A stretch of 12,881 nucleotides of DNA. Origin: Acidimicrobiales bacterium. Its GTDB lineage: Bacteria > Actinomycetota > Acidimicrobiia > Acidimicrobiales > Palsa-688. Every line of letters starts with the position of its first letter. Within the stretch, counting starts at the first letter, position 1. Positions 1,320 to 12,848 of the stretch are shown here, one piece after another. The stretch is taken from NCBI GenBank assembly GCA_030039575.1, contig JASHVH010000554.1:1-12881 (forward strand). The letters are read 5' to 3'. The position numbers and the translations under genes are program-made. A model generated the notes under the pieces. The model saw nothing but the letters and a program-made list of their open reading frames with translations. It was not told the DNA's origin and did no database searches.

Positions 1320-3158
1320 ATGATCAGGTGCTACTGCGATCCTCCGACCGTCGACGCGGGTGGCACGCTTTCGGTCTTCGTCTCAACCGACGCGGCGCAC
1401 TTCGTACTGCGCGTCTACCGCCAGACGACGGGCTTTAGGCATGTTGCCTCGGTCCCCGAATACGAGGCCGAGGGAGAGTTTGTGGGTGAGGGCACCGTGG
1501 ACCAGGACTGGGGGTGGCCCGAGTACCGCTTGGCGTTGCCAGCGTCGTTGGCGAGCGGGGCCTACTTCGTGGTGGCCGCGGAGGTAACGGCCGGCGGGGC
1601 CCGCCGGTGGCCCTCTCTCCAGGATGCGGCGGGCGACTGGGGCAAGGCGCTGTTTGTTGTCGCGCCAGTCGACCGACAGCACAAGCCCATCCTTTACAAG
1701 CTGAGCTGGTTCACTTATGCGTGCTACAACTGGACTGGCGAGGGGAGCCTTTACGCCGGGGCCCACTGGAGCGACTACCGCAACCGGCCCGGCTACCGCG
1801 TTTCCTGGCGACGGCCGGGTGTTGCTACCGGAGGGCTCGTCTCCGAGGGCGACCCCCACGACGTCTACGTGCCGGGCTCGCGCCGGCAGACCTTCGAGCA
1901 CTGGGACGCGCCCTTCTTCCGCTTCCTGCACCGCGAGGGCTTTGAGTTCGACGTCGCGACAGATCTCGACGTTCATCGCCGGCCCGAGTTGCTGCGCCAG
2001 TACAACCTTGTGCTCAGCGTCGGGCACGACGAGTATTGGAGCGACGAGCTTCGAGACGCTATCGATGACTACATCTCGAACGGCGGCAACCTGGCTTTCC
2101 TTAGCGGGAACACGTGCTGCTTCCGGATCGACGTCGAGGAAACGACTGCCACTATCAGATGCGAGAAGGCACGGGGTCACGAGGCCGAGTACCTGTGGCA
2201 GGCGCGCCGCCCCGAGCAGGAGACGACCGGCGTCACCTACTTCAATGGGGGAGGGTGGTGGGATGGTCGCCGCCCTCAGGTCGGCTACCGGCCGTACCAC
2301 CACGCCCACTGGTCGTACGACGGGGTCGACACGAGCACCGACCTTGGGGCATCGACGTCCCCGCCGGTCGTCGGGTACGAGTGCGACGGCGCCGATTATG
2401 GCATGCAGCGGGGCCGCCCCGTCGTTACCCGGGCCAGCTTCGGCCGGCTCCCCATCGTGCTCGGCGTCGGCCCGCTTGGCGAGGGCTGGCACGCCTTCAA
2501 GCGGGGTGCCGCGGCGACGATCGTCACCTATACCGACCGCTCCGGTGGGATCGTCTATACCGGCGCCACCACCGATTGGCCGATTGTCGCCGAGACCGAT
2601 CCTGAGATCGGGAAAGTGACGAGCAACGTCCTCAGAGCGCTGCAGCGGCCAAACCTGCGAGTGCTGGGCCCTTTTCGTGAGGGGCGCTCGACGGACCTGG
2701 TCCAAGCCGGCAAGAGCTATGAGTTCCGTCTTCAGTCCACACCCGGACGGCCGGCGCCTGGCACCGTGACCGCATGGCGCGTCGCCATTGACGACAAAGT
2801 CCTGCTCGACTGGGTGGGATCGGGGCCGGTGTTGCGGTTCGAAGTCCCTGAGGACGCCCGTACCCTAACGGTCAGCGTCGACCAGCGCGTCCATGAAGGG
2901 GCGCACTGCGGGTTCGGGTCGCTGAGCTTCGACGTGCTTAACACCACTGAAGCCGCAACGGTGGGCTTCACCAGGGCGCTGGGGCGGGCGGGAACGCCGG
3001 GAGGCCCGCCAGGGAGCTTCACCGACGTGGAGCGCGCCTGGCCAGTCAACCGCTCGCCGATCTCTTCGACGCAGGCCGGAGTTCTCTCCGCCGCGCTCAA
3101 ACAGATGACCGAGTCCCTTCGCCAGCTAGGCGAGACGGGTGACCAAGGCCCACTTTGA
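1320..3158 (+). CDS. N,N-dimethylformamidase large-subunit-like protein
   Basis: A 612-residue protein of the family named for the large (beta) subunit of N,N-dimethylformamidase, an iron enzyme that hydrolyses an amide to an amine and formate. Residues 1-115 look like the N-terminal beta-sandwich (IRCYCDPPTVDAGGTLSVFV). The catalytic region follows with the family hallmarks FTYACYNWTGEGSLY (131-145), ATDLDVH (213-219), LVLSVGHDEYWSDELRDAI (230-248), GGNLAFLSGNTC (255-266) and VGYECDGADY (351-360). Residues from about 440 form a further beta-rich domain. Characterised DMFases use two Tyr and one Glu to hold iron; Y133, Y136, Y239 and E354 are candidates, but I cannot map them with certainty. 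The protein is shorter than the roughly 760-residue enzyme, and no gene for a small subunit is visible. No signal peptide is seen, so it is probably cytoplasmic. ATG 1320 is preferred (AGGAAGG at 1303-1309, 10 nt away); TTG 1317 is also possible. The natural substrate is unknown. Confidence 0.85.
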   Translation: MIRCYCDPPTVDAGGTLSVFVSTDAAHFVLRVYRQTTGFRHVASVPEYEAEGEFVGEGTVDQDWGWPEYRLALPASLASGAYFVVAAEVTAGGARRWPSLQDAAGDWGKALFVVAPVDRQHKPILYKLSWFTYACYNWTGEGSLYAGAHWSDYRNRPGYRVSWRRPGVATGGLVSEGDPHDVYVPGSRRQTFEHWDAPFFRFLHREGFEFDVATDLDVHRRPELLRQYNLVLSVGHDEYWSDELRDAIDDYISNGGNLAFLSGNTCCFRIDVEETTATIRCEKARGHEAEYLWQARRPEQETTGVTYFNGGGWWDGRRPQVGYRPYHHAHWSYDGVDTSTDLGASTSPPVVGYECDGADYGMQRGRPVVTRASFGRLPIVLGVGPLGEGWHAFKRGAAATIVTYTDRSGGIVYTGATTDWPIVAETDPEIGKVTSNVLRALQRPNLRVLGPFREGRSTDLVQAGKSYEFRLQSTPGRPAPGTVTAWRVAIDDKVLLDWVGSGPVLRFEVPEDARTLTVSVDQRVHEGAHCGFGSLSFDVLNTTEAATVGFTRALGRAGTPGGPPGSFTDVERAWPVNRSPISSTQAGVLSAALKQMTESLRQLGETGDQGPL

Positions 3159-3327: not shown

Positions 3328-4362
3328 TTGAAGGAGCGAGCGGGGGAACGCGGTGACGGCGTATCGTCGGATAACAACGCGTTGGAGTGCGGGAACGTAC
3401 TGTTAGCCAGCCTGGAGCAGTTGCCGCCGGGTGAGGACCTGCTTGCCGGCTTCGAAGGGATCGAAGTGGCCACGACACCCGAGGCGTTGTCGGAGGGCGC
3501 GCGCGGGAATGAGGTGCTTTTGCTCTGGGATTTCGCCAGCCAAAGAGAATTTGTGAACCTTGGCCCGAAGCTCAGGAGGGCGGTGCGATGGATCCAGTTG
3601 GGCTCGGTGGGCGCCGACCTTGTGCTGGACAGAGAGACCATCGAGTCGGACCTAGTTGTCACAAATTGTGGCAACATTTGGGCTAGAGACGCGGCGATTG
3701 CCGAGTACGCCATAGCACTGCTTTTATTGTTGGCCAAGAGGCTGGCGGATGTGCTGACGGACGGGAAAAGTGGGAGGTGGCGGCCACTGGCGTCGTCTGC
3801 AGTACGGGGAAAGCGCCTGGTTGTGGTGGGGTATGGGCCAATCGGACGATATGTCACCGAATTAGGGACCGGGCTGGGCCTGAGAGTGGCAGCAGTCAAC
3901 CGCAGCGGGAACGACCGGTACCATCAAACGGGGGTGGACGTATATCCGGCCGAGTCCTTACTCGATATTGTGGCGGACGCCGATTATCTTATACTGGCGG
4001 CGCCGGAGACGGCAATGACGAGGGGAATTATTAACACGGCTGTGCTGGGGATGATGAAATCTACCGGAATCGTTGTTAATGTGGCCCGAAGTTCTTTGAT
4101 TGTTGAGGAGGATCTGATCGAGGCGCTGCGAAACGGTCAGTTGAGTGGAGCGGCACTAGATGTCGTTAATGGTGAGCCGCTGCCGCTTGGTCATCCGTTA
4201 TGGTCAGTTGAAAACTTAATTATATCCCCACACATGTCTGGAGATATCGAGGGCTGGCAGAAGTTGCAGCTCGATGTGTTCCGCTCGAATATGCGCCGGT
4301 GGTTGGCAGGAGTGCCGCTCGAAAATGTGGTGACTAAAGAGAGGGGCTATGTCGAGCGATGA
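3328..4362 (+). CDS. D-isomer-specific 2-hydroxyacid dehydrogenase
   Basis: A 344-residue NAD(P)-dependent enzyme of the D-2-hydroxyacid dehydrogenase family (phosphoglycerate dehydrogenase, glyoxylate/hydroxypyruvate reductase type), which interconverts a 2-keto acid and a D-2-hydroxy acid in the cytoplasm. The Rossmann motif VVVGYGPIG has its glycines at 168, 170 and 173. NRS at 191-193 after the second strand resembles NADP-preferring members, so NADPH use is inferred. The catalytic set is intact: Arg254 in NVARSSLI, Glu283 in NGEPLP and His302 in SPHMSG. TTG 3328 is supported by GGGAGGG at 3316-3322, 5 nt upstream, with an in-frame TAA just before it. The first 22 residues look non-conserved. 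Codon use is unlike the flanking genes: six TTA leucine codons and many A/T-ending codons, especially near the 3' end, suggest a different origin. The substrate is unknown. Confidence 0.9.
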   Translation: MKERAGERGDGVSSDNNALECGNVLLASLEQLPPGEDLLAGFEGIEVATTPEALSEGARGNEVLLLWDFASQREFVNLGPKLRRAVRWIQLGSVGADLVLDRETIESDLVVTNCGNIWARDAAIAEYAIALLLLLAKRLADVLTDGKSGRWRPLASSAVRGKRLVVVGYGPIGRYVTELGTGLGLRVAAVNRSGNDRYHQTGVDVYPAESLLDIVADADYLILAAPETAMTRGIINTAVLGMMKSTGIVVNVARSSLIVEEDLIEALRNGQLSGAALDVVNGEPLPLGHPLWSVENLIISPHMSGDIEGWQKLQLDVFRSNMRRWLAGVPLENVVTKERGYVER

Positions 4363-4430
4363 AAATATATATCGTCCATCCGCCGAGCGGGGCCGTCAGA
4401 GGTGCTCCACATTGACAGTCTCGCGGGTGT

Positions 4431-4472
4431 CCCCGACCATGGTGGCCGGGGGGCCCCTCGAATTTCGGGGCC
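4431..4472 (+). terminator. Two back-to-back hairpins after the dehydrogenase
   Basis: Two adjoining 21-nt stem-loops lie 69 nt beyond the dehydrogenase stop. The first (4431-4451) has CCCCG pairing with CGGGG plus an inner CCA/TGG pair. The second (4452-4472) has perfect arms GGCCCC and GGGGCC around a 9-nt loop. There is no T-run on either side, so this is not a classic intrinsic terminator. U-less hairpin terminators have been proposed in high-GC actinobacteria, so a role in ending the left transcript is plausible but unproven. Confidence 0.35.
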
Positions 4473-4678
4473 GCCCGACGGTGTCACCTCCCCACAACCG
4501 TCATCGCGACCAGGCTGTCACCTAAGTCCGCTCCCACGGTGATTGTTGGCGTGCGCGCTCTGCGTCACTTATGAGGGCGACTTTTCTGCACGGCGGGCTC
4601 GTCAAGGCGTAGCCCGCTGCAGGCTCTGGAGAGGGTGAAGCAGGGTCGGTGCGTCTCGGTTACCCCCTTCTGAGTGCC

Positions 4679-4707
4679 TTGACAAGCTTAGGTCCGTACC
4701 CTAAGTT
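4679..4707 (+). promoter_or_regulatory. Promoter-like site with inverted repeat in the spacer
   Basis: A perfect -35 hexamer TTGACA (4679-4684) is followed after 17 bp by TAAGTT (4702-4707), which keeps the important second A and last T of a -10 box. The spacer contains the inverted repeat CTTAGG-7 nt-CCTAAG (4687-4705), which overlaps the -10. A repressor bound there would block the promoter. The site faces the transporter genes but lies about 680 bp upstream of the ATPase start, so either a long leader RNA is made or the real transporter promoter is closer. Confidence 0.35.
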
Positions 4708-5384
4708 TTCCATAGCTCAGATTCTTGATTTCATCATACGGAAGAGCCTGCGATTTGTGATGGACCGGGGGTTTGCAACATGTCCAGCCTGTCGAGCCTG
4801 GGATGTGGGGTCACAGTGCGGGCCCGAGTGCCCTCCACCGGAGGCGCGACCCACGACCTGGTCGTCGCTGTGGCCCCGGAAGTCTCAAGGCTCTAGGCGA
4901 AGCGACGTTACGGCCCGGGCGTTGAGGAGAGCGAGGGCCAGGCCCCGTTGGGGGCAGGTCAGGCCGAGCAGGTGGGTAAGACCCGACTTGGCGGCCGTTG
5001 CCCAGGCCGCCGCCAGTGGCCGGTGTGGGGCTGCCCGCTCCAGCGCGAAGCCTGCTCCCGGGTCGAACACCTTTGTACCGGCCAGAGAGCTGCAGGCCCC
5101 CTGGGTTGTCTCGGTAGGCAGCTGCGAGAGGTCAGCCAGGGCCCCCGCCGGGCCCATGGCTAGGCACGAGCACCGAGTTGACGACAGCGTGAGCGGTACT
5201 TACCATGAACGCATGCCCAGCGGGTGCACCGTTGTTCAGGTAGTAGGAGGGGCCAACTGCTCTCCGGCCCTGATCACGGAAGCCTGTAGATGGCGCCAGC
5301 CTCGTCTTGGACCGGACGGTACGTTCATAAACACAGTGCAACGGCTGAGGTACGACTGACGAGCCCTTGGGGGGCGGAGGTTTC

Positions 5385-6599
5385 ATGTCGTCGCTACAAC
5401 TTCAAGGGGTTTGGAAGGTATTTGGCAGGCACACCGCGGTAAGGAATGTCCATCTTTCTGTCGCTGAAGGAGAGATGGTGGTCCTGGTAGGGCCGTCGGG
5501 ATGCGGCAAGACAACTACCTTACGAATCGTTGCCGGGCTGGAGACGGTGAGCGCCGGAACCGTGAGCATCTCGGGAAGAGATGTTACGAGGCTGCCTCCC
5601 GGGCGGCGCAATATTGGCATGGTTTTTCAAAGCTATGCGCTGTACCCGCACATGTCCGTGTACCGCAACCTCATGTTCGGAGCACAGATTCGGCACGAGC
5701 CCAAGCGTGAAGCCCAGGAGCGAGCCCAAGACGTCGCTCGAGTCTTGGAGATCGACCAGTTGTTGGACCGTCGGCCGGCGCAACTGTCTGGAGGCCAGAG
5801 GCAGCGGGTCGCGCTCGGACGGGTCCTTATGAGGCGGCCGGACCTCTTCCTGTTGGACGAGCCTTTGTCCAACCTCGACGCCGCGCTGCGCACGGAGGTG
5901 CGAGGCGAACTCATACGGCTTCACAGGCGACTTGAAGCGACCATGATTTATGTCACCCACGATCAGGTCGAGGCTATGACCATGGCGGACCGGATCGGGG
6001 TCATGTCCCACGGCATCCTCATGCAACTGGGGAGCCCCGAGGAACTGTACGAAGCGCCACGGAACATATTTGTTGCCGGTTTTTTGGGCTCGCCAAAGAT
6101 AAACACGTTCAGCGGACGGGTCGAGGTGGCCGGCAACGGCCCCCTGTTCCGGTTGCAGGGAGGTTGGCTACCGGTGCCCCCATCGTGGCGGAGCCTTATC
6201 GAAGCCCTGGCCAACGACCAGCAGGTGACGCTTGGCGTGAGACCCGAGGACTGGAGGTCAGCCAGCCCGTCGGCCGACGAAGGAATAGCAGGCGTCGTGG
6301 ACATCGTCGAACCCTTGGGGGGCGAGACCATTGTGACGGTAACCGCTGACGCTTCTTCCATACGTTGGCGCGTGGGCGGTAGGAGCGAACTGTCGGCGGG
6401 CACGTCCGTTCGGCTGACGGCGCCCGCCCATCGCCTGTACCTGTTCGACGCTCGCACCGGCGACGCTTTGGCGACACCCGCCGGCCAAGTTGCCCACGCG
6501 CCGACGGCGCCGCGGCCTGACCTGGAAGAGGGCCCGGCACCGGACACGGAGGAACCGACCGTGCGGGACGGGGACAGGGTCCGTGAACTCGAGACTTAA
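5385..6599 (+). CDS. ABC importer ATPase, MalK/UgpC type
   Basis: A 404-residue ATP-hydrolysing subunit of a CUT1-family carbohydrate importer, acting as a dimer on the inner face of the membrane. All motifs are present: Walker A GPSGCGKTT (36-44), Q-loop Gln82 (MVFQSYALYPHM), signature LSGGQRQRVALGR (134-146), Walker B LFLLDEP (154-160), D-loop SNLD (162-165) and H-loop His192 (YVTHDQVEAMT). PRNIFVAGFLGSPKIN (225-240) is the typical MalK-family linker into the TOBE/regulatory domain, where VRPED matches the family. About 35 Pro/Glu/Asp-rich residues at the C-terminus extend beyond the usual end and look disordered. ATG 5385 is chosen because GGAGG (5376-5380) lies 4 nt upstream; an in-frame TTG at 5367 would place the ribosome binding site inside the gene. 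It heads a complete transporter operon. Some MalK-type ATPases serve several importers, so exclusive use here is inferred. Confidence 0.96.
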   Translation: MSSLQLQGVWKVFGRHTAVRNVHLSVAEGEMVVLVGPSGCGKTTTLRIVAGLETVSAGTVSISGRDVTRLPPGRRNIGMVFQSYALYPHMSVYRNLMFGAQIRHEPKREAQERAQDVARVLEIDQLLDRRPAQLSGGQRQRVALGRVLMRRPDLFLLDEPLSNLDAALRTEVRGELIRLHRRLEATMIYVTHDQVEAMTMADRIGVMSHGILMQLGSPEELYEAPRNIFVAGFLGSPKINTFSGRVEVAGNGPLFRLQGGWLPVPPSWRSLIEALANDQQVTLGVRPEDWRSASPSADEGIAGVVDIVEPLGGETIVTVTADASSIRWRVGGRSELSAGTSVRLTAPAHRLYLFDARTGDALATPAGQVAHAPTAPRPDLEEGPAPDTEEPTVRDGDRVRELET

Positions 6600-6719: not shown

Positions 6720-8108
6720 ATGTCTCGTAAAGGGATTAAGTGCTTATTCGTGAGCGCGGGCACCGCAATTTTGGTAGTGGCGAGCGCTACGACGAGCAGC
6801 GCCAGCGATTTGCACGCTGCTAACTCTAAAACTCCGGTCACTTTCGCGTACTCTTCAGCTTGGGTGATCGATACAACGCCGCTAACGACTCAGTTTTACA
6901 ATGAATTAGTGAAGCAATTTGATGCTAAGTACCCTTCGTTGACGCTAAAACTCGAGCCAATCCCGGGTACGTATGATGATATTGTCACGAAGCTAAGTCT
7001 CTTGTTCAGGAGCTCCAGCACAGCTCCGGACGTTGCCGAGCTGCCGACGCAGGTCATCGGGCAATTTCAATCTTCGGGCGAGCTGATGGCCATGAACAAG
7101 TTCTTGAAGACGTCATCGTGGTGGTCAACCTTCCCGAAGGTGGTCCAGAGCGAGGGCATGGTCGGTAGCCAGGTATATGCGGTGAACCAGGGAGAGAATG
7201 ATGAGTTTATCTACTATGACAAGTCGATCTTCCAAAAGGCTGGCTTGCCGACGACGTGGGCTCCCAAAAACTGGGCACAGATCCTTAGCGCCGCAGAACA
7301 GATAAAGGCGAAGGTTCCCGGCGTCTACCCGATCTGGCTTTACCCGGGCAACTTGTCCGGGTCCACAGGACTGTTGCAGGGGGCGGCGAACCTCATTTAT
7401 GGCACGCCGACACCAGATATCCAGGTCCCCAACTCGACCAAGTTCGTTATTCAGAGCCCCGGGATCGACGCTGTTTTGGGGTTCTACCATGACGTCTATA
7501 GCAAGGGTTTGGGGGTGCCTATGAGCGCCTTGCCCTCCAACGGTGGTATCGGGTACGGAGGCAACCTGTTCCAGATGGGAAAGCTTGGGCTTGCCATAGG
7601 CTCTAACTACTGGGGAGGTGGGTGGACGAAGACCGTCAGTTCACCGTACTGGCCCGTAGCGTCAAAAGTGGTGGCCACGGCGCCGCTCCCGACAGAGTTT
7701 GGGCAAAGTCCGGGCATAGCGACCACGATAGGGGGCTGGGACCTGGCTATCGGAGCGGACACGAAGCACGCTCAGGATGCCTGGGACTTGCTCAACCTTC
7801 TGCAGGATCCGCAGAATTCTCTTAACATGGCAAACTGGTCAGGCTTCGTACCTCCATCGTCGCAATTTGGCAAGGATCCCGCATTTGTCAATTTCGCCGC
7901 TCCGTATAATGCTGAGTCAGTGGACGTCCTTCCGTATGGTCGTCTGATCCCGACGAGCCCGAACTTCGATGCCTGGGCCTACGGGTTTGGAGAGGCGACC
8001 GCGGACATGGCGCTGCATCCCAGCACGACGGTGGCCCAGGCGCTCTCAACGTTCCAGGGTTACGCAAAGGACGAGATCGGCTCGTCAGCACTGGTGTCAG
8101 AGAAGTAA
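6720..8108 (+). CDS. Extracellular solute-binding protein, family 1
   Basis: A 462-residue substrate-capture protein of the CUT1 importer. A positively charged start (MSRKGIK) and a hydrophobic stretch (about 8-21), followed by small residues with plausible cleavage after residues 23-29, form a Sec signal peptide. The mature protein has typical family-1 features: an opening beta strand (VTFAYSSAW), then FYNELVKQFDAKYPSLTLKLEPIPGTYDDIVTKL, APDVAELPTQ, YAVNQGENDEFIYYDKSIFQKAGLP and GGWDLAIGADTKHAQDAWDLLNLL. No lipobox Cys follows the hydrophobic segment; the only early Cys (8) is in the n-region. This is unusual for a Gram-positive binding protein, which is normally a lipoprotein. Many Trp, Tyr, Asn and Gly residues suit a sugar-like ligand. 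AGGAAAGGGG lies just upstream of ATG 6720. The 5' third is less GC-rich than the rest. The ligand cannot be named. Confidence 0.95.
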   Translation: MSRKGIKCLFVSAGTAILVVASATTSSASDLHAANSKTPVTFAYSSAWVIDTTPLTTQFYNELVKQFDAKYPSLTLKLEPIPGTYDDIVTKLSLLFRSSSTAPDVAELPTQVIGQFQSSGELMAMNKFLKTSSWWSTFPKVVQSEGMVGSQVYAVNQGENDEFIYYDKSIFQKAGLPTTWAPKNWAQILSAAEQIKAKVPGVYPIWLYPGNLSGSTGLLQGAANLIYGTPTPDIQVPNSTKFVIQSPGIDAVLGFYHDVYSKGLGVPMSALPSNGGIGYGGNLFQMGKLGLAIGSNYWGGGWTKTVSSPYWPVASKVVATAPLPTEFGQSPGIATTIGGWDLAIGADTKHAQDAWDLLNLLQDPQNSLNMANWSGFVPPSSQFGKDPAFVNFAAPYNAESVDVLPYGRLIPTSPNFDAWAYGFGEATADMALHPSTTVAQALSTFQGYAKDEIGSSALVSEK

Positions 8109-8246: not shown

Positions 8247-9197
8247 TTGATCCCGGTCCAGGAATGGATGGAGCAAGAAGGGCCGGCCGGGCTGGCGGCT
8301 GTCCTCCCTGGAGAGCCGAGCGCCGCCCGGGGACGGCGCGCGGACCCAACCGGAATGCTGTTAACTGCGCCAGCGCTGGTCATGTTATTGTGCCTGTTCT
8401 TAGCGCCCGTCGGGTACGCTTTCTACCTAGGGTTTACAAACCTGACGTTGACAGGCCCGACGTCTCTGCACTACAGCTTCACTGGGACGGCGAACCTCAG
8501 TCTGATGGCACACGATGGGTTGTTCTGGAGTTCGCTCGCGGTCACCGGCATCTATATCGGAGCGTCGGCGGTGTTCGGCGCGACGGTGGCCGGGATGGCG
8601 CTGGCATTGCTGATGCGGCGGGCCGCCAGCGGTGTGAGCGCAGTGGTCGGGAGCCTGGCCATTTTCGCCTGGATAATGCCCGCCGCCAGCGGCGCCTTTT
8701 TGTGGTACACCTTCAGCCAAGCGGGAGGGACACTCTCTAAGGTGGTTGGGGGAGCCCCAATATTCAGCGCTCCCCTTGTTATCGTCTCGACGGCAAACGT
8801 GTGGTCGACCGCCGGGTTCGCCATGCTCGTGCTGGCGGGGGGTCTACGAGCGGTGGCGCCTGAAATGATCGAAGCCGCCCGGCTCGAGGGGGCTTCGCAC
8901 TGGCAGACGTTTTGGAAGATCACAGTTCCAACTATGCGTTACACGCTGATGACGACCGTTCTTATAGTGGTCCTGCTAAGTTTGGGAAATTTCACGTTGA
9001 TTTATGTCATGACCCAAGGGGGGCCCGGTAATGCGACGGATATTTTGCCGATCTATTCGTACCTTCAGGCGTTTAGCTTCAACCGGCTTGGTTATGGAGC
9101 CCTCGTGGGGGATGTGGTTGTCGTCTTGGGAGCCATCGGCGCGTACGCGTATGTCGTAGCCGTTAGGAAAAGGGATAGGGGTCTCGACAGTGCTTGA
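8247..9197 (+). CDS. ABC sugar permease, MalF-like
   Basis: A 316-residue inner-membrane subunit of the CUT1 importer, expected to pair with the next gene's product to form the channel. After a roughly 35-residue charged cytoplasmic N-terminus come about six hydrophobic segments, near residues 38-62, 95-123, 130-155, 172-198, 233-255 and 283-306. The EAA loop that docks on the ATPase is well kept: EAARLEGASHWQTFWKITVP (209-228) matches EAA-x2-(D/E)GA-x8-I-x-x-P. YVMTQGGPGNATDILPIY (254-271) is a strong hallmark of MalF/UgpA-type permeases. TTG 8247 is chosen because GAGGAGG (8231-8237) sits 9 nt upstream; in-frame ATG 8268 is an alternative with a poor ribosome binding site. The gene overlaps the next by 8 nt, indicating coupled translation. 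It contains several TTA codons near its start. Confidence 0.95.
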   Translation: MIPVQEWMEQEGPAGLAAVLPGEPSAARGRRADPTGMLLTAPALVMLLCLFLAPVGYAFYLGFTNLTLTGPTSLHYSFTGTANLSLMAHDGLFWSSLAVTGIYIGASAVFGATVAGMALALLMRRAASGVSAVVGSLAIFAWIMPAASGAFLWYTFSQAGGTLSKVVGGAPIFSAPLVIVSTANVWSTAGFAMLVLAGGLRAVAPEMIEAARLEGASHWQTFWKITVPTMRYTLMTTVLIVVLLSLGNFTLIYVMTQGGPGNATDILPIYSYLQAFSFNRLGYGALVGDVVVVLGAIGAYAYVVAVRKRDRGLDSA

Positions 9198-10089
9198 AGC
9201 CGGATCGCGACCACGTCAGGCCAGTGACTTCGAGTTGGAGCCCGATCTTGACGCGGTGGAGCCACCTCCCGTTATGGCGCCGGAAAGGAAATGGTCGTTG
9301 GGGGCGACCGCCGGACTGGTCGTTATGGGCGTACTGTTCGCGTTGCCGCTGTTGTGGCTGGTGTTAGCCGCGTTTGATGCAAATGGCAACGCCTTCTTGC
9401 GCTGGCCGAACTGGAGCGTGACGAATTTCGTAGCCGCCGGGTCGAGCGCCAACCTGCAGAGTTTTCTGGCGAGCCTGGAGTTGGGCCTGATCTCAGCCGC
9501 GGTAGCGACGATCCCGGCTGTGCCAGCGGGCTACGCTTTGTCGCGTCGGCGCATCCCGCTGAAGGACAGCTTCATGGTGATGGTCCTGTTCCTCACCGCT
9601 GTGCCAATTGCTATCGTTGTGATCCCGGTTTATCAGTTCTTGTCGCAGTACGGTTTCCTCAGTTTGGTGTCGGCAGGGATATTTATAGGCGTTACGAACT
9701 TGCCGTTCGCGCTCTGGCTGGTGCGCGCGGCAGTAGAAAGCGTCCCGCTCGACCTCGAGGAGTCGGCCTTGATGGAGCGGGCGCGACTCTGGCAGATTAT
9801 CGCCCGGGTGACAGGGCCTTTGGCGGCTCCGGGCATTCTCGCCGCTGCTTTCTTTGCCTTTGCCGCGGGGTGGAGCGCCTTCTTGGTCCCATTGGTGCTG
9901 GTGAGCGCATCTTCGCAGTTTCCGGCTGGCCTTGCACTGTACGGGTACATCCATTCGGGAGGGTTGATCCAGTACGGTAATTTGGCCGCGTTCTCGCTGC
10001 TGTACTCGCTGCCCGTCGTAATCCTGTACTTGATTGTGTCCCGGGTCATCAAGGGGGGTTTCGCTTTTGGCGGTGCGATACGAGGCTGA
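9190..10089 (+). CDS. ABC sugar permease, MalG-like, with altered EAA loop
   Basis: A 299-residue second membrane subunit of the importer. A roughly 35-residue acidic, proline-containing N-terminus is followed by hydrophobic segments near 38-62, 93-117, 127-150, 160-180, 212-240 and 265-290. It has the MalG-like features NWSVTNF (74-80), AGYALSRRRIP (113-123) and GWSAFLVPLVL (227-237). The EAA loop is ESALMERARLWQIIARVTGP (191-210): EAA has become ESA, and the highly conserved Gly after the acidic residue is Arg197. The partner permease has a normal loop, so docking on the ATPase may be asymmetric. GTG 9190 overlaps the preceding gene by 8 nt (GTGCTTGA). The reading frame is intact to TGA at 10087-10089, so this is not a pseudogene by length. 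Confidence 0.95.
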   Translation: MLEAGSRPRQASDFELEPDLDAVEPPPVMAPERKWSLGATAGLVVMGVLFALPLLWLVLAAFDANGNAFLRWPNWSVTNFVAAGSSANLQSFLASLELGLISAAVATIPAVPAGYALSRRRIPLKDSFMVMVLFLTAVPIAIVVIPVYQFLSQYGFLSLVSAGIFIGVTNLPFALWLVRAAVESVPLDLEESALMERARLWQIIARVTGPLAAPGILAAAFFAFAAGWSAFLVPLVLVSASSQFPAGLALYGYIHSGGLIQYGNLAAFSLLYSLPVVILYLIVSRVIKGGFAFGGAIRG

Positions 10090-10190: not shown

Positions 10191-10271
10191 TGGTTGGGAA
10201 AGAAGAGCAATTGCAGCGCTGGCTAGAGGTCCCCAGTGATGCGACCGGGCACTTGGGCCAAGGAGGCGAAG

Positions 10272-11126
10272 TTGACAACGAGCCCTTGGATGGCGCGACT
10301 GTGCGTCGGCACTCAGCCATGTAGCGCGTCCGAAATCAGCAAGATCGCCCCTGGCCTGGCGGGTGCCGGTTACGAAGGAGTGGAGGTACACCCGGGACAG
10401 CTGGCGTCGGTGGGTGACCGCGTCTACCGGGACCGGTTCCTGGGCACGCTTCGCACCGCCGGCCTCGAGGTCGCCTGCGCCTATGCCGGCGTCGCGTCCG
10501 ACGAGCCATCGGCTGCGCTTGCAAGCGCACGCTGCGAGATGGCTGCTGCCCTCGGCGCCGGGCTGGTCTTCCTGGTACCGCCCAGCCGCCGGAGCGGGAC
10601 GCTCCAGGACATGGCGGCCCAGGTGGCCAGGGTGTGCAGCGCGGCAGGTCAGCTTGGCCTCGAGGTAGCAGTGCACAACCACGCCGGGACGCACGTGACG
10701 AACGTGGAAATGGCGCTGCGGTTCCTCGACGCGGTCGACCGACCCGAGGCCGGGCTTTGCCTGGACGTCGCCCACCTGGCGCTGTTCGAAGATGACGTGC
10801 CCGCCGCCATCGACCAGCTGGTCCCATACGTTCGCTATGTCCACCTGAAGGATCTAGCTGCCGGCGCCCGTGAGACCCTCGCCGCGTTGGACGGCGAGTC
10901 GCTCGAAGGCGTGTCGCCGTTGAACCCCGCCTACACCGACATCGGTGCCGGGGCGCTCGACATGCCCGCGATCCTGGAAGCGCTGGCGAGCCGCGGGTAC
11001 GGCGGCTGGGCGACCGTCGAGATCGAGACGCTGAGGCGCCCGACTTTTCTCGAACAGGCGCGTGAAAACGCCGATGAGGTCACCGCACTTTTGGCTCAGC
11101 GCGAAAACCGTGCGCCGCGACCATGA
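10272..11126 (+). CDS. Sugar phosphate isomerase/epimerase, IolE-like TIM barrel
   Basis: A 284-residue member of the xylose-isomerase-like TIM-barrel family, metal-dependent enzymes that isomerise, epimerise or dehydrate sugars and inosose. Family landmarks in order are VGTQPCSASEISKIAPGLAGAGYEGVEVHPG (12-42), VAVHNHAGTHV (132-142), LCLDVAHLALF (162-172), VRYVHLKDL (187-195), YTDIGAGALDMPAILEAL (221-238) and GYGGWATVEIE (242-252). Asp165, His191 and Glu250 are likely metal ligands. The VHNHAGT, LDVAHLA and VHLKD blocks resemble inosose dehydratase (IolE)-like proteins more than ketose 3-epimerases. TTG 10272 is chosen because AAGGAGG (10260-10266) lies 5 nt upstream. The more upstream GTG 10236 would put that site inside the gene, and ATG 10290 is too far from it. 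The neighbouring Gfo/Idh/MocA gene gives an IolE/IolG-like pair, suggesting polyol or cyclitol catabolism by inference. Confidence 0.9.
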   Translation: MTTSPWMARLCVGTQPCSASEISKIAPGLAGAGYEGVEVHPGQLASVGDRVYRDRFLGTLRTAGLEVACAYAGVASDEPSAALASARCEMAAALGAGLVFLVPPSRRSGTLQDMAAQVARVCSAAGQLGLEVAVHNHAGTHVTNVEMALRFLDAVDRPEAGLCLDVAHLALFEDDVPAAIDQLVPYVRYVHLKDLAAGARETLAALDGESLEGVSPLNPAYTDIGAGALDMPAILEALASRGYGGWATVEIETLRRPTFLEQARENADEVTALLAQRENRAPRP

Positions 11127-11165
11127 GCTGGCCGCCGACAGGGCGCCGTACAGGAGGATTAGACG

Positions 11166-11222
11166 ATGCCCCGCTTAGAGGGCCGCAGGAACACGCGAGT
11201 GAGAGGTAAGCACCAATTATGA
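11166..11222 (+). CDS. 18-residue basic mini-ORF coupled to the oxidoreductase
   Basis: ATG 11166 has a very good ribosome binding site, AGGAGG at 11152-11157 with 8-nt spacing, stronger than that of the downstream gene. It encodes MPRLEGRRNTRVRGKHQL and stops at TGA 11220-11222, overlapping the oxidoreductase ATG (11219) as ATGA. This is the arrangement of a translationally coupled leader peptide. It has five Arg, one Lys and one His, and two TTA leucine codons, the last just before the stop. No homologue is recognised. It may be a real small protein, a leader that tunes oxidoreductase translation, or chance. Confidence 0.45.
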   Translation: MPRLEGRRNTRVRGKHQL

Positions 11223-12304
11223 GGCTCGGGATCGTGGGTTGTGGGTGGATCGTCGAGCGCGAGCACGCTCCGGCGTTGCGCGACGCAAAAGGCATTGAGG
11301 TGGCCGCCGTCGCCGATATCGCCCCGGGGCGCGCCCGGCTCGTAGGCAGCTTGCTCGGCTTGGACGAGAAGGACTGCCTCGACGACCCGCGCCGGCTGGT
11401 AGAGCGGCCAGATGTCGACGCCGTCTCCATTGCGACGCCGCCCAACGTCCGCACGGAGCTGGTGGCTATGGCCGCGTCCTGCGGAAAGCACGTTATCTGC
11501 GAGAAGCCTCTGGCCACGACCCTGAGTGCGGCGGACGAGATGATCGCCGGCTGCGCCGAGGCCGGAGTCCAGCTCCTCGTCTACCACAACTACCTGTACT
11601 TCCCTGAGACCCGACTGGCCCGCCAGCTGATCGCCGAGGGTGAGATCGGCGAGGTACTGGCGACGGATATCACGGGGTTCGGGGCCCGCCCGTGGGAAGG
11701 AACCGAAGCCTTCCGGCCAGGCTGGCGGCGGGTCGTCGACGACGCCGGCGGCGGCGCACTGATGGACGTCGCGGTGCACGCTGTGTACCTCACCGAGGCG
11801 TACCACGGACGACCGGTCGACCGGGTCAGCGCCGACGTCCGCTACGACAACAGCGGGGTCGACATCGCGGGCTATTGCCGCTTGGGCCTCGGGCCGGGCG
11901 TAGGGCTCCTCGCGGTGGCATGGGGCCAGGGAGGGGCGTCACTCAGCATCATGGGGACCGACGGGCACATCGCGTTCGTGTTCGACGAGCGCATGGGCTA
12001 TTACGGAGCGCCGGCAAGGGTCGTACGGCTGTTCCGTGCGTCCGGCCCCTCGCGCAGCTGGTACATGCCGTTCGTGAGGACGTTCTTCACGGCGGAGCTC
12101 TTCGAGGACATCGCCGCCTGCCTCGAGGGTCAGAGCGAGCTTTACCCAGCCCACGGAAAAGACGGACGACGGGCCGTCGAGGCCATCTTTGCCGCCTACC
12201 GCGCGGCGGCCACTCAGGCGGTCGTGAGCCTTCCGCTCCCTGAGGACGACCTGTACCGGGAAGGCCTGGCCGGCCTCCGGCCGGCCGTGCAGACCAGGGA
12301 CTGA
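11219..12304 (+). CDS. Gfo/Idh/MocA-family oxidoreductase
   Basis: A 361-residue NAD(P)-dependent sugar or polyol dehydrogenase, related to glucose-fructose oxidoreductase, inositol 2-dehydrogenase and MocA. The Rossmann fold opens at once with GIVGCGWI (4-11), and Asp33 at the end of the second strand (VADIAP) favours NAD. VSIATPPNVRTELV (69-82) and the catalytic-Lys motif CEKPLATT (94-101) are standard. GGGALMDVAVHAVYL (177-191) carries the Asp183/His187 pair equivalent to the active-site D-x-x-x-H of the family. The C-terminal alpha/beta domain is complete. ATG 11219 has only a moderate ribosome binding site (GAGAGGTAAG) but overlaps the stop of the upstream mini-ORF, so coupled translation is likely. 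The substrate is unknown; a cyclitol or sugar from the adjacent importer is plausible. A 157-bp gap to the cupin gene follows. Confidence 0.95.
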   Translation: MRLGIVGCGWIVEREHAPALRDAKGIEVAAVADIAPGRARLVGSLLGLDEKDCLDDPRRLVERPDVDAVSIATPPNVRTELVAMAASCGKHVICEKPLATTLSAADEMIAGCAEAGVQLLVYHNYLYFPETRLARQLIAEGEIGEVLATDITGFGARPWEGTEAFRPGWRRVVDDAGGGALMDVAVHAVYLTEAYHGRPVDRVSADVRYDNSGVDIAGYCRLGLGPGVGLLAVAWGQGGASLSIMGTDGHIAFVFDERMGYYGAPARVVRLFRASGPSRSWYMPFVRTFFTAELFEDIAACLEGQSELYPAHGKDGRRAVEAIFAAYRAAATQAVVSLPLPEDDLYREGLAGLRPAVQTRD

Positions 12305-12410
12305 AGGGCTAATCCTTGAGGAGCCGTCCCTCTCGCCTAGGCTGCCGACGCTGTGTTCCCATAGCCGTGGCCCCGTTTCCCGAGAGTGCCCGCCAGAGGG
12401 CCCAGGAACT

Positions 12411-12424
12411 TTCGATGGCTCGAA
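12411..12424. promoter_or_regulatory. Inverted repeat before the cupin gene
   Basis: TTCGA-TGGC-TCGAA forms a perfect 5-bp-arm palindrome 37 bp before the cupin start, followed by an AT-richer stretch with TATTTG at 12431-12436 that could be part of a -10 box. It is a possible operator for separate control of the cupin. The remainder of the gap after the oxidoreductase (12305-12410) shows only a weak hairpin at 12307-12325. Confidence 0.25.
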
Positions 12425-12461
12425 CTCGCCTATTTGAAAAACAACACTAAGGAGTGGCTTG

Positions 12462-12848
12462 ATGGACATACGTTCGATTGAAACCTCTGTGCCCCTTGTC
12501 GAACACAATGGCACGGTGCCGGTGTGGTACCTTGTCGAGCCGCAGGCGATGCGGGAGGCCACCGAAGGTGGGTTCCTCGAGCTTGTCAATGAGTTCGAGG
12601 TGGCCGGTGGGGGCGCGGTCTACCCCCACACCCACCCGACGCACGAGTTCTACTACGTGACGTCAGGGAGGGGCACCATGACTGTCGGCGAAGAAGACCG
12701 CCCGGTCCAGCAAGGGGACCTGGTCTACATCCCGCCCGACGTCGTGCACAGCCTCCGGCCAGCGACGGACAACGCCCCGATCCATTGCTTTTGCTTCGCG
12801 ATTGGCGTCAAAGGGGCAGGCAAGATCGACTACTCGACGCACGACTGA
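12462..12848 (+). CDS. Small single-domain cupin protein
   Basis: A 128-residue single-domain cupin (beta barrel). Motif 1 is GGAVYPHTHPTHEFYYVTSGRG (50-71), with metal ligands His56, His58 and Glu62. Motif 2 is GDLVYIPPDVVHSL (85-98), with the last ligand His96. All four metal-binding residues are present, so it should bind a divalent metal. Small cupins in sugar clusters act as isomerases, epimerases or lactone/keto-acid enzymes, or as ligand-binding proteins; sequence alone does not decide. ATG 12462 is preferred, with AAGGAG (12449-12454) 7 nt upstream; TTG 12459 is possible. The palindrome upstream suggests it may have its own promoter as well as readthrough from the oxidoreductase gene. 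Confidence 0.93.
   Translation: MDIRSIETSVPLVEHNGTVPVWYLVEPQAMREATEGGFLELVNEFEVAGGGAVYPHTHPTHEFYYVTSGRGTMTVGEEDRPVQQGDLVYIPPDVVHSLRPATDNAPIHCFCFAIGVKGAGKIDYSTHD

Follow-up and report, generated by a model that had tools for sequence, protein, structure and literature searches.

The stretch of DNA analysed here, hereafter the window, is a complete contig of 12,881 bases from an Acidimicrobiales bacterium (assembly GCA_030039575.1, contig JASHVH010000554.1) with 10 plausible genes, all on the + strand; the draft assembly is 68% complete. Next to the genes of a sugar-type importer, between a carbohydrate kinase and a 2-hydroxyacid dehydrogenase, lies the gene of interest, coding for a putative metal amidohydrolase of the DMFA2_C family (PF20254; hereafter DMFA2). 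Our analyses suggest that its product is a single-chain relative of N,N-dimethylformamidase (DMFase), the iron enzyme degrading dimethylformamide (DMF), and that its probable reaction is the cleavage of an amide bond in some small molecule.

The DMFA2 open reading frame (1320-3158, + strand) codes for 612 amino acids from an ATG at 1320, or for 613 from an alternative TTG at 1317, and the sequence AGGAAGG is found at 1303-1309, 10 bases upstream of the ATG. The DMFase large-subunit motifs claimed in a first-pass annotation of the window are indeed present (FTYACYN, residues 131-137; LSVGHDEYW, 232-240; GGNLAFLSGNT, 255-265). The protein matched the PF20254 profile with an E value of 2e-55 (189.2 bits against a curated cut-off of 27); 902 homologues were recovered at E ≤ 1e-3 from 7998 candidates scored, and a search of the source genome identified a single PF20254 gene. 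An immunoglobulin-like N-terminal part is followed by a catalytic ThuA/DMFase-type domain, extending to about residue 443, and by a C-terminal beta-sandwich with a helical tail. Fold comparison showed that the catalytic domain has the DMFase fold; the C-terminal part, folded separately without an alignment, gave a poor model (predicted local distance difference test score, 54.8). Assignment to the DMFase-type hydrolases is strengthened by this fold and by the site residues described below. Searches of the literature collection used here for DUF6605, PF20254 and DMFA2_C returned no paper.

In DMFase, according to PMC7686228, Fe(III) is held by Y399, Y440 and E521, and H519 is required. Alignment by MAFFT with the dmfA2 product of the Paracoccus plasmid pAMI2 placed Y136, H236, E238 and N264 of the window protein opposite DMFase Y399, H519, E521 and N547, respectively. 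Among the 120 matches listed of the 902, window protein included, Y136 was kept in all 120, Y145, H236 and E238 in 119 each, and N264 in 117. The second tyrosine is less straightforward: MAFFT placed W150 (kept in 112 of these 120), not Y145, opposite Y440, and a profile alignment likewise left Y145 unpaired with Y440, both of which speak against the ligand set proposed below. A relative from Streptomyces microflavus (locus L097), however, has a tyrosine 9 residues past the first one, as in the window protein, and this same residue precedes the proline of RRP by 17 positions, which matches DMFase and Roseomonas; because of these two spacings, together with its conservation, Y145 is a likelier counterpart of Y440 than W150. 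Among 99 sequences (17 of 116 were excluded as lacking the search motif), a tyrosine occurs at +9 in 82, at +8 or +10 in 4, and at none of these positions in 13, and both spacings coincide in L097 alone, so that, with this sole bridge, the equivalence of Y145 and Y440 stays an inference. The Tyr/Tyr/Glu site of the first-pass annotation thus stands by alignment for the first tyrosine (Y136) and the glutamate (E238), and probably, on spacing, for the second tyrosine (Y145); that Y145 acts as third ligand, that a metal is present and that the chemistry is that of amides is what we infer.

In a phylogenetic tree, from which sequences shorter than 350 amino acids or with half or more gaps had been removed, the window protein and P0002-P0006 formed a group of six with a support of 1.0, distant from DMFase (tree distance from the window protein, 4.3); the 34 sequences of set A1 did not form a separate clade, as 58 tips descend from the ancestor that they share. 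The PF20254 proteins P0002-P0120, uncharacterised and of metagenomic origin, have about 600-640 amino acids, mostly equal the window protein in length, and are 33-65% identical to it in the 33 cases aligned. The six-member clade is set apart from the rest of them by cysteine and tryptophan residues of its own near the site: among the 114 other matches listed, C135 and W138 were found in none and C267 in two, and C266 also occurs in 19. Because C135, W138 and C267 lie beside the ligands, the metal pocket of this clade, as judged from sequence, is probably unlike that of the other listed members.

The solved structures sharing this fold that our searches recovered are those of the Paracoccus DMFase large subunit (PDB 6lvb-6lve; dmfA2 of pAMI2) and of N-acetyl-(R)-beta-phenylalanine acylase (PDB 8huy, 8i59, 8i5a). 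The former has the catalytic-domain fold and most of the site in common with the window protein, at 24-25% identity over the aligned part, but differs in its C-terminal part and gene setting: pentraxin domain II, matched by Laminin_G_3 in dmfA2, is absent from the window protein (762 versus 612 residues), and dmfA1, which overlaps dmfA2 in pAMI2, does not neighbour the window gene. The acylase, whose name implies N-acetyl removal and for which a literature search under beta-phenylalanine acylase found no paper, has the fold and the single-gene nature in common with the window protein, at 23-24% identity, and is colinear with dmfA2 through the pentraxin region that the window protein lacks. The first-pass annotation had reasoned from a missing small-subunit gene; indeed, the genes adjoining DMFA2 are the kinase and the dehydrogenase, with no small-subunit gene, and a search of the 68% complete assembly with Paracoccus dmfA1 gave a best match of E 0.017 only. 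As an argument this absence is weakened, and it is not remarkable per se, because the acylase entries list one molecule.

Profile searches bore out the neighbours recognised earlier, namely the FGGY kinase, 2-hydroxyacid dehydrogenase, CUT1 importer, IolE-like and Gfo/Idh/MocA genes, and added a small cupin gene missing from the earlier list (Table 1). About 1 kb without a convincing gene (4363-5366) separates the two halves of the cluster; its longest + strand open reading frame had no Pfam match, and an Rfam search of the whole window gave none. The IolE-like, Gfo/Idh and cupin genes are consecutive at 10236-12848, where NCBIfam models for levoglucosan dehydrogenase and glycoside 3-dehydrogenase appear below cut-off, a row that we presume to resemble 3-keto-glycoside routes.

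Table 1. Genes of the window and the evidence for their assignment.
Feature	Positions	Strand	Evidence and remarks
FGGY carbohydrate kinase, N-terminus missing at contig end	1..1166	+	open reading frame 3-1166; autoinducer-2 kinase and xylulokinase are the closest NCBIfam models, each scoring far under cut-off
DMFA2_C (PF20254) putative metal amidohydrolase, 612 aa	1320..3158	+	profile match, fold match
D-2-hydroxyacid dehydrogenase	3328..4362	+	closest relative in the database has 81% identity and lies on a contig of 2,861 bases
CUT1-type importer ATPase (UgpC/MalK-like), ATG at 5385 or start further upstream	5367..6599	+	profile match; 75% identical copy in G004
Importer solute-binding protein	6720..8108	+	profile match; 71% identical copy in G004
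Importer permease 1	8247..9197	+	profile match; G004 copy
Importer permease 2	9190..10089	+	profile match; G004 copy
IolE-like xylose-isomerase-type TIM barrel, start uncertain	10236..11126	+	profile match
Gfo/Idh/MocA oxidoreductase	11219..12304	+	profile match
Small cupin	12459..12848	+	profile match

The importer is conserved in a genome from another genus of the same family (G004), with identities of 77% and 74% for the two permeases in addition to those in Table 1, and is followed there by genes for a sulfatase, a 2-hydroxyacid dehydrogenase, a class II aldolase, an FGGY kinase and a beta-keto acid cleavage enzyme. Gfo/Idh genes are present in all three of the more distant importer clusters (in G004, G000 and G002), and BLAST detected IolE-like genes in two, the third having a fragment with a similar start at a contig end. 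DMFA2 sits, as had been claimed, in a genuine sugar-type importer cluster, and in the sister genus the conserved importer likewise has carbohydrate genes, though different ones, next to it. In G004, sulfatases occur in or beside importer clusters of the same type at two loci (L131, contig C107, 6079-8331; L132, 10712-12223), possibly reflecting the use of sulfated sugars.

We tentatively favour, at somewhat less than an even chance, a function in which DMFA2 acts after import, as a single-chain metal amidohydrolase, on an amide-linked group of a carbohydrate or cyclitol. The enzyme has the fold of DMFase and N-acyl-beta-amino-acid acylase and would act as a single chain. If the Fe(III) of DMFase is a guide, Y136, Y145 and E238 would bind a metal ion; the metal would activate water, aided by H236 and N264, for cleavage of the amide bond. 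It would work in the cytosol, downstream of the neighbouring importer, since its start resembles that of the DMFase large subunit and no leader peptide was apparent on inspection. Removal of an amide-linked group (e.g. N-acyl or N-formyl) from the imported compound would leave a remainder for the kinase and dehydrogenases. This post-import step is a guess from a single gene neighbourhood, and the sulfatase of the matching sister-genus cluster would fit a role in substituent removal.

Several observations weigh against this function. The gaps flanking DMFA2 (153 and 169 bases) mean that a single operon is not shown. The FGGY kinase and dehydrogenase of G004 are only 40% and 29% identical to those of the window and hence not their orthologues, and the matching G004 cluster contains no Gfo/Idh, IolE or cupin match. 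DMFA2 itself is absent from all four related importer clusters, and thus stands by the importer in one of five, the window. The carbohydrate genes in these clusters support the view that the importer carries carbohydrates, while its link to DMFA2 was seen once. In the wider family, the search of species genomes confirmed at least 595 relatives, of which the 80 best loci (median 19 kb) were kept; these relatives, about 25-38% identical, may have other functions. Neighbours were counted with single window proteins as queries, an approach missing distant versions such as a putative binding protein in Streptomyces clusters. FGGY kinase, binding protein and cupin matches occurred in none of the 80, dehydrogenase and IolE matches in one each, and ATPase matches in nine. 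Seven more distant relatives from the same order had no window-gene neighbours (BLAST, E 1e-5) save ABC ATPase matches in two. The recurrent linkage to sugar genes expected by the first-pass annotation was thus apparent neither in the 80 loci of the wider family nor in the four related importer clusters, which is half of what it had named as refuting its proposal. A sugar or aminocyclitol substrate is possible, with one sister-genus comparison for it and the missing recurrence against.

Gfo/Idh genes were present in 15 of the 80 loci, 14 of them from Poribacteria, Planctomycetota or Verrucomicrobiota, a count without a random-locus control. Both permeases were found in seven, all from Streptomyces; this association was rejected as support for a sugar link, as it concerns one genus and a different gene set. 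At L009, L011-L015, L047 and L098 of that genus, DMFA2 precedes a pair of CUT1 permease genes by about 3.5 kb in the same orientation, surrounded by HAD, radical SAM, methyltransferase, GNAT and epimerase genes (named from single representatives) in what looks like a conserved cluster of its own. A tally of recurrent neighbours over 84 loci, each named from one representative, revealed a carbamoyltransferase-type gene in 10 (L003, L004, L005, L006, L007, L010, L017, L019, L027 and L029), just upstream of DMFA2 on the same strand in seven of them, a DUF7133/HEAT protein in 15 and a PhyH protein in nine, eight from Poribacteria. DMFA2 directly follows a glycosyltransferase gene, with a 4-base overlap and YcaO and P450 genes beside, at L097 (6814-9341), and lies close behind one at L099 (6548-9266, Caballeronia).

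The same metal-dependent amide hydrolysis might alternatively be directed at a compound that has nothing to do with the sugar taken up (e.g. an N-acylated amino acid), the gene being a rare neighbour that arrived independently. We regard this as a real possibility, if on the unlikely side. N-acetyl-(R)-beta-phenylalanine acylase is among the two best fold matches, the other importer clusters lack DMFA2, and the gene is rare: in samples of 395 class and 396 phylum genomes, where no more than three candidates were scored in each genome, the window's own copy was the only match at E ≤ 1e-40, and 3 of 32 family genomes had DMFA2 at E ≤ 1e-20. A plasmid search (185 records) found none above 39% identity, and a scan of viral contigs yielded 13 distant loci, 24-36% identical. 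By eye, among the 120 matches listed in each of the three homologue lists (of 902, 329 and 230), no contig was in common except the window's own, a weak negative; two equal-size contigs across the lists (3403, 5343) come from different sources. Conversely, DMFA2 has a sugar kinase gene on one side and a dehydrogenase gene on the other, shares the importer's strand, and its clade has residues of its own beside the site. Those residues might instead point to different chemistry on the same scaffold, C135, C267 and W138 changing which metal is bound or which reaction is catalysed (ester, lactone, C-N lyase or redox); their near absence from other listed homologues would agree with this, but ligands and the H236/N264 pair are retained across the clade and a cysteine close to the metal is suggested by sequence only, which makes it quite unlikely. 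That the enzyme is a true DMFase, hydrolysing DMF, N-methylformamide or formamide, is highly improbable: the fold and most of the site are in common, but identity is low, the tree distance large, the pentraxin domain absent and dmfA1 not adjacent, while the Paracoccus large subunit is inactive by itself (PMC7686228).

Post-import amide hydrolysis on a carbohydrate or cyclitol has a more ambitious form, which we consider doubtful: a first carbohydrate-active branch of the two-Tyr, one-Glu iron amidohydrolases, single-chain and with cysteines lining the metal pocket, whose target would be an amino sugar or aminocyclitol brought in by the importer and de-N-acylated or cut in another way, the C-terminal beta-sandwich and helical tail replacing the small subunit. 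The solved structures of the DMFase fold found in our searches carry two activities, formamide and N-acetyl-beta-phenylalanine hydrolysis, and the family, with 902 homologues recovered here, has many uncharacterised members. The adjoining importer binding protein makes the substrate of the DMFA2 enzyme testable, and, if the clade does act on amino sugars, an unusual metal site would enter carbohydrate breakdown and the family would gain a third substrate class.
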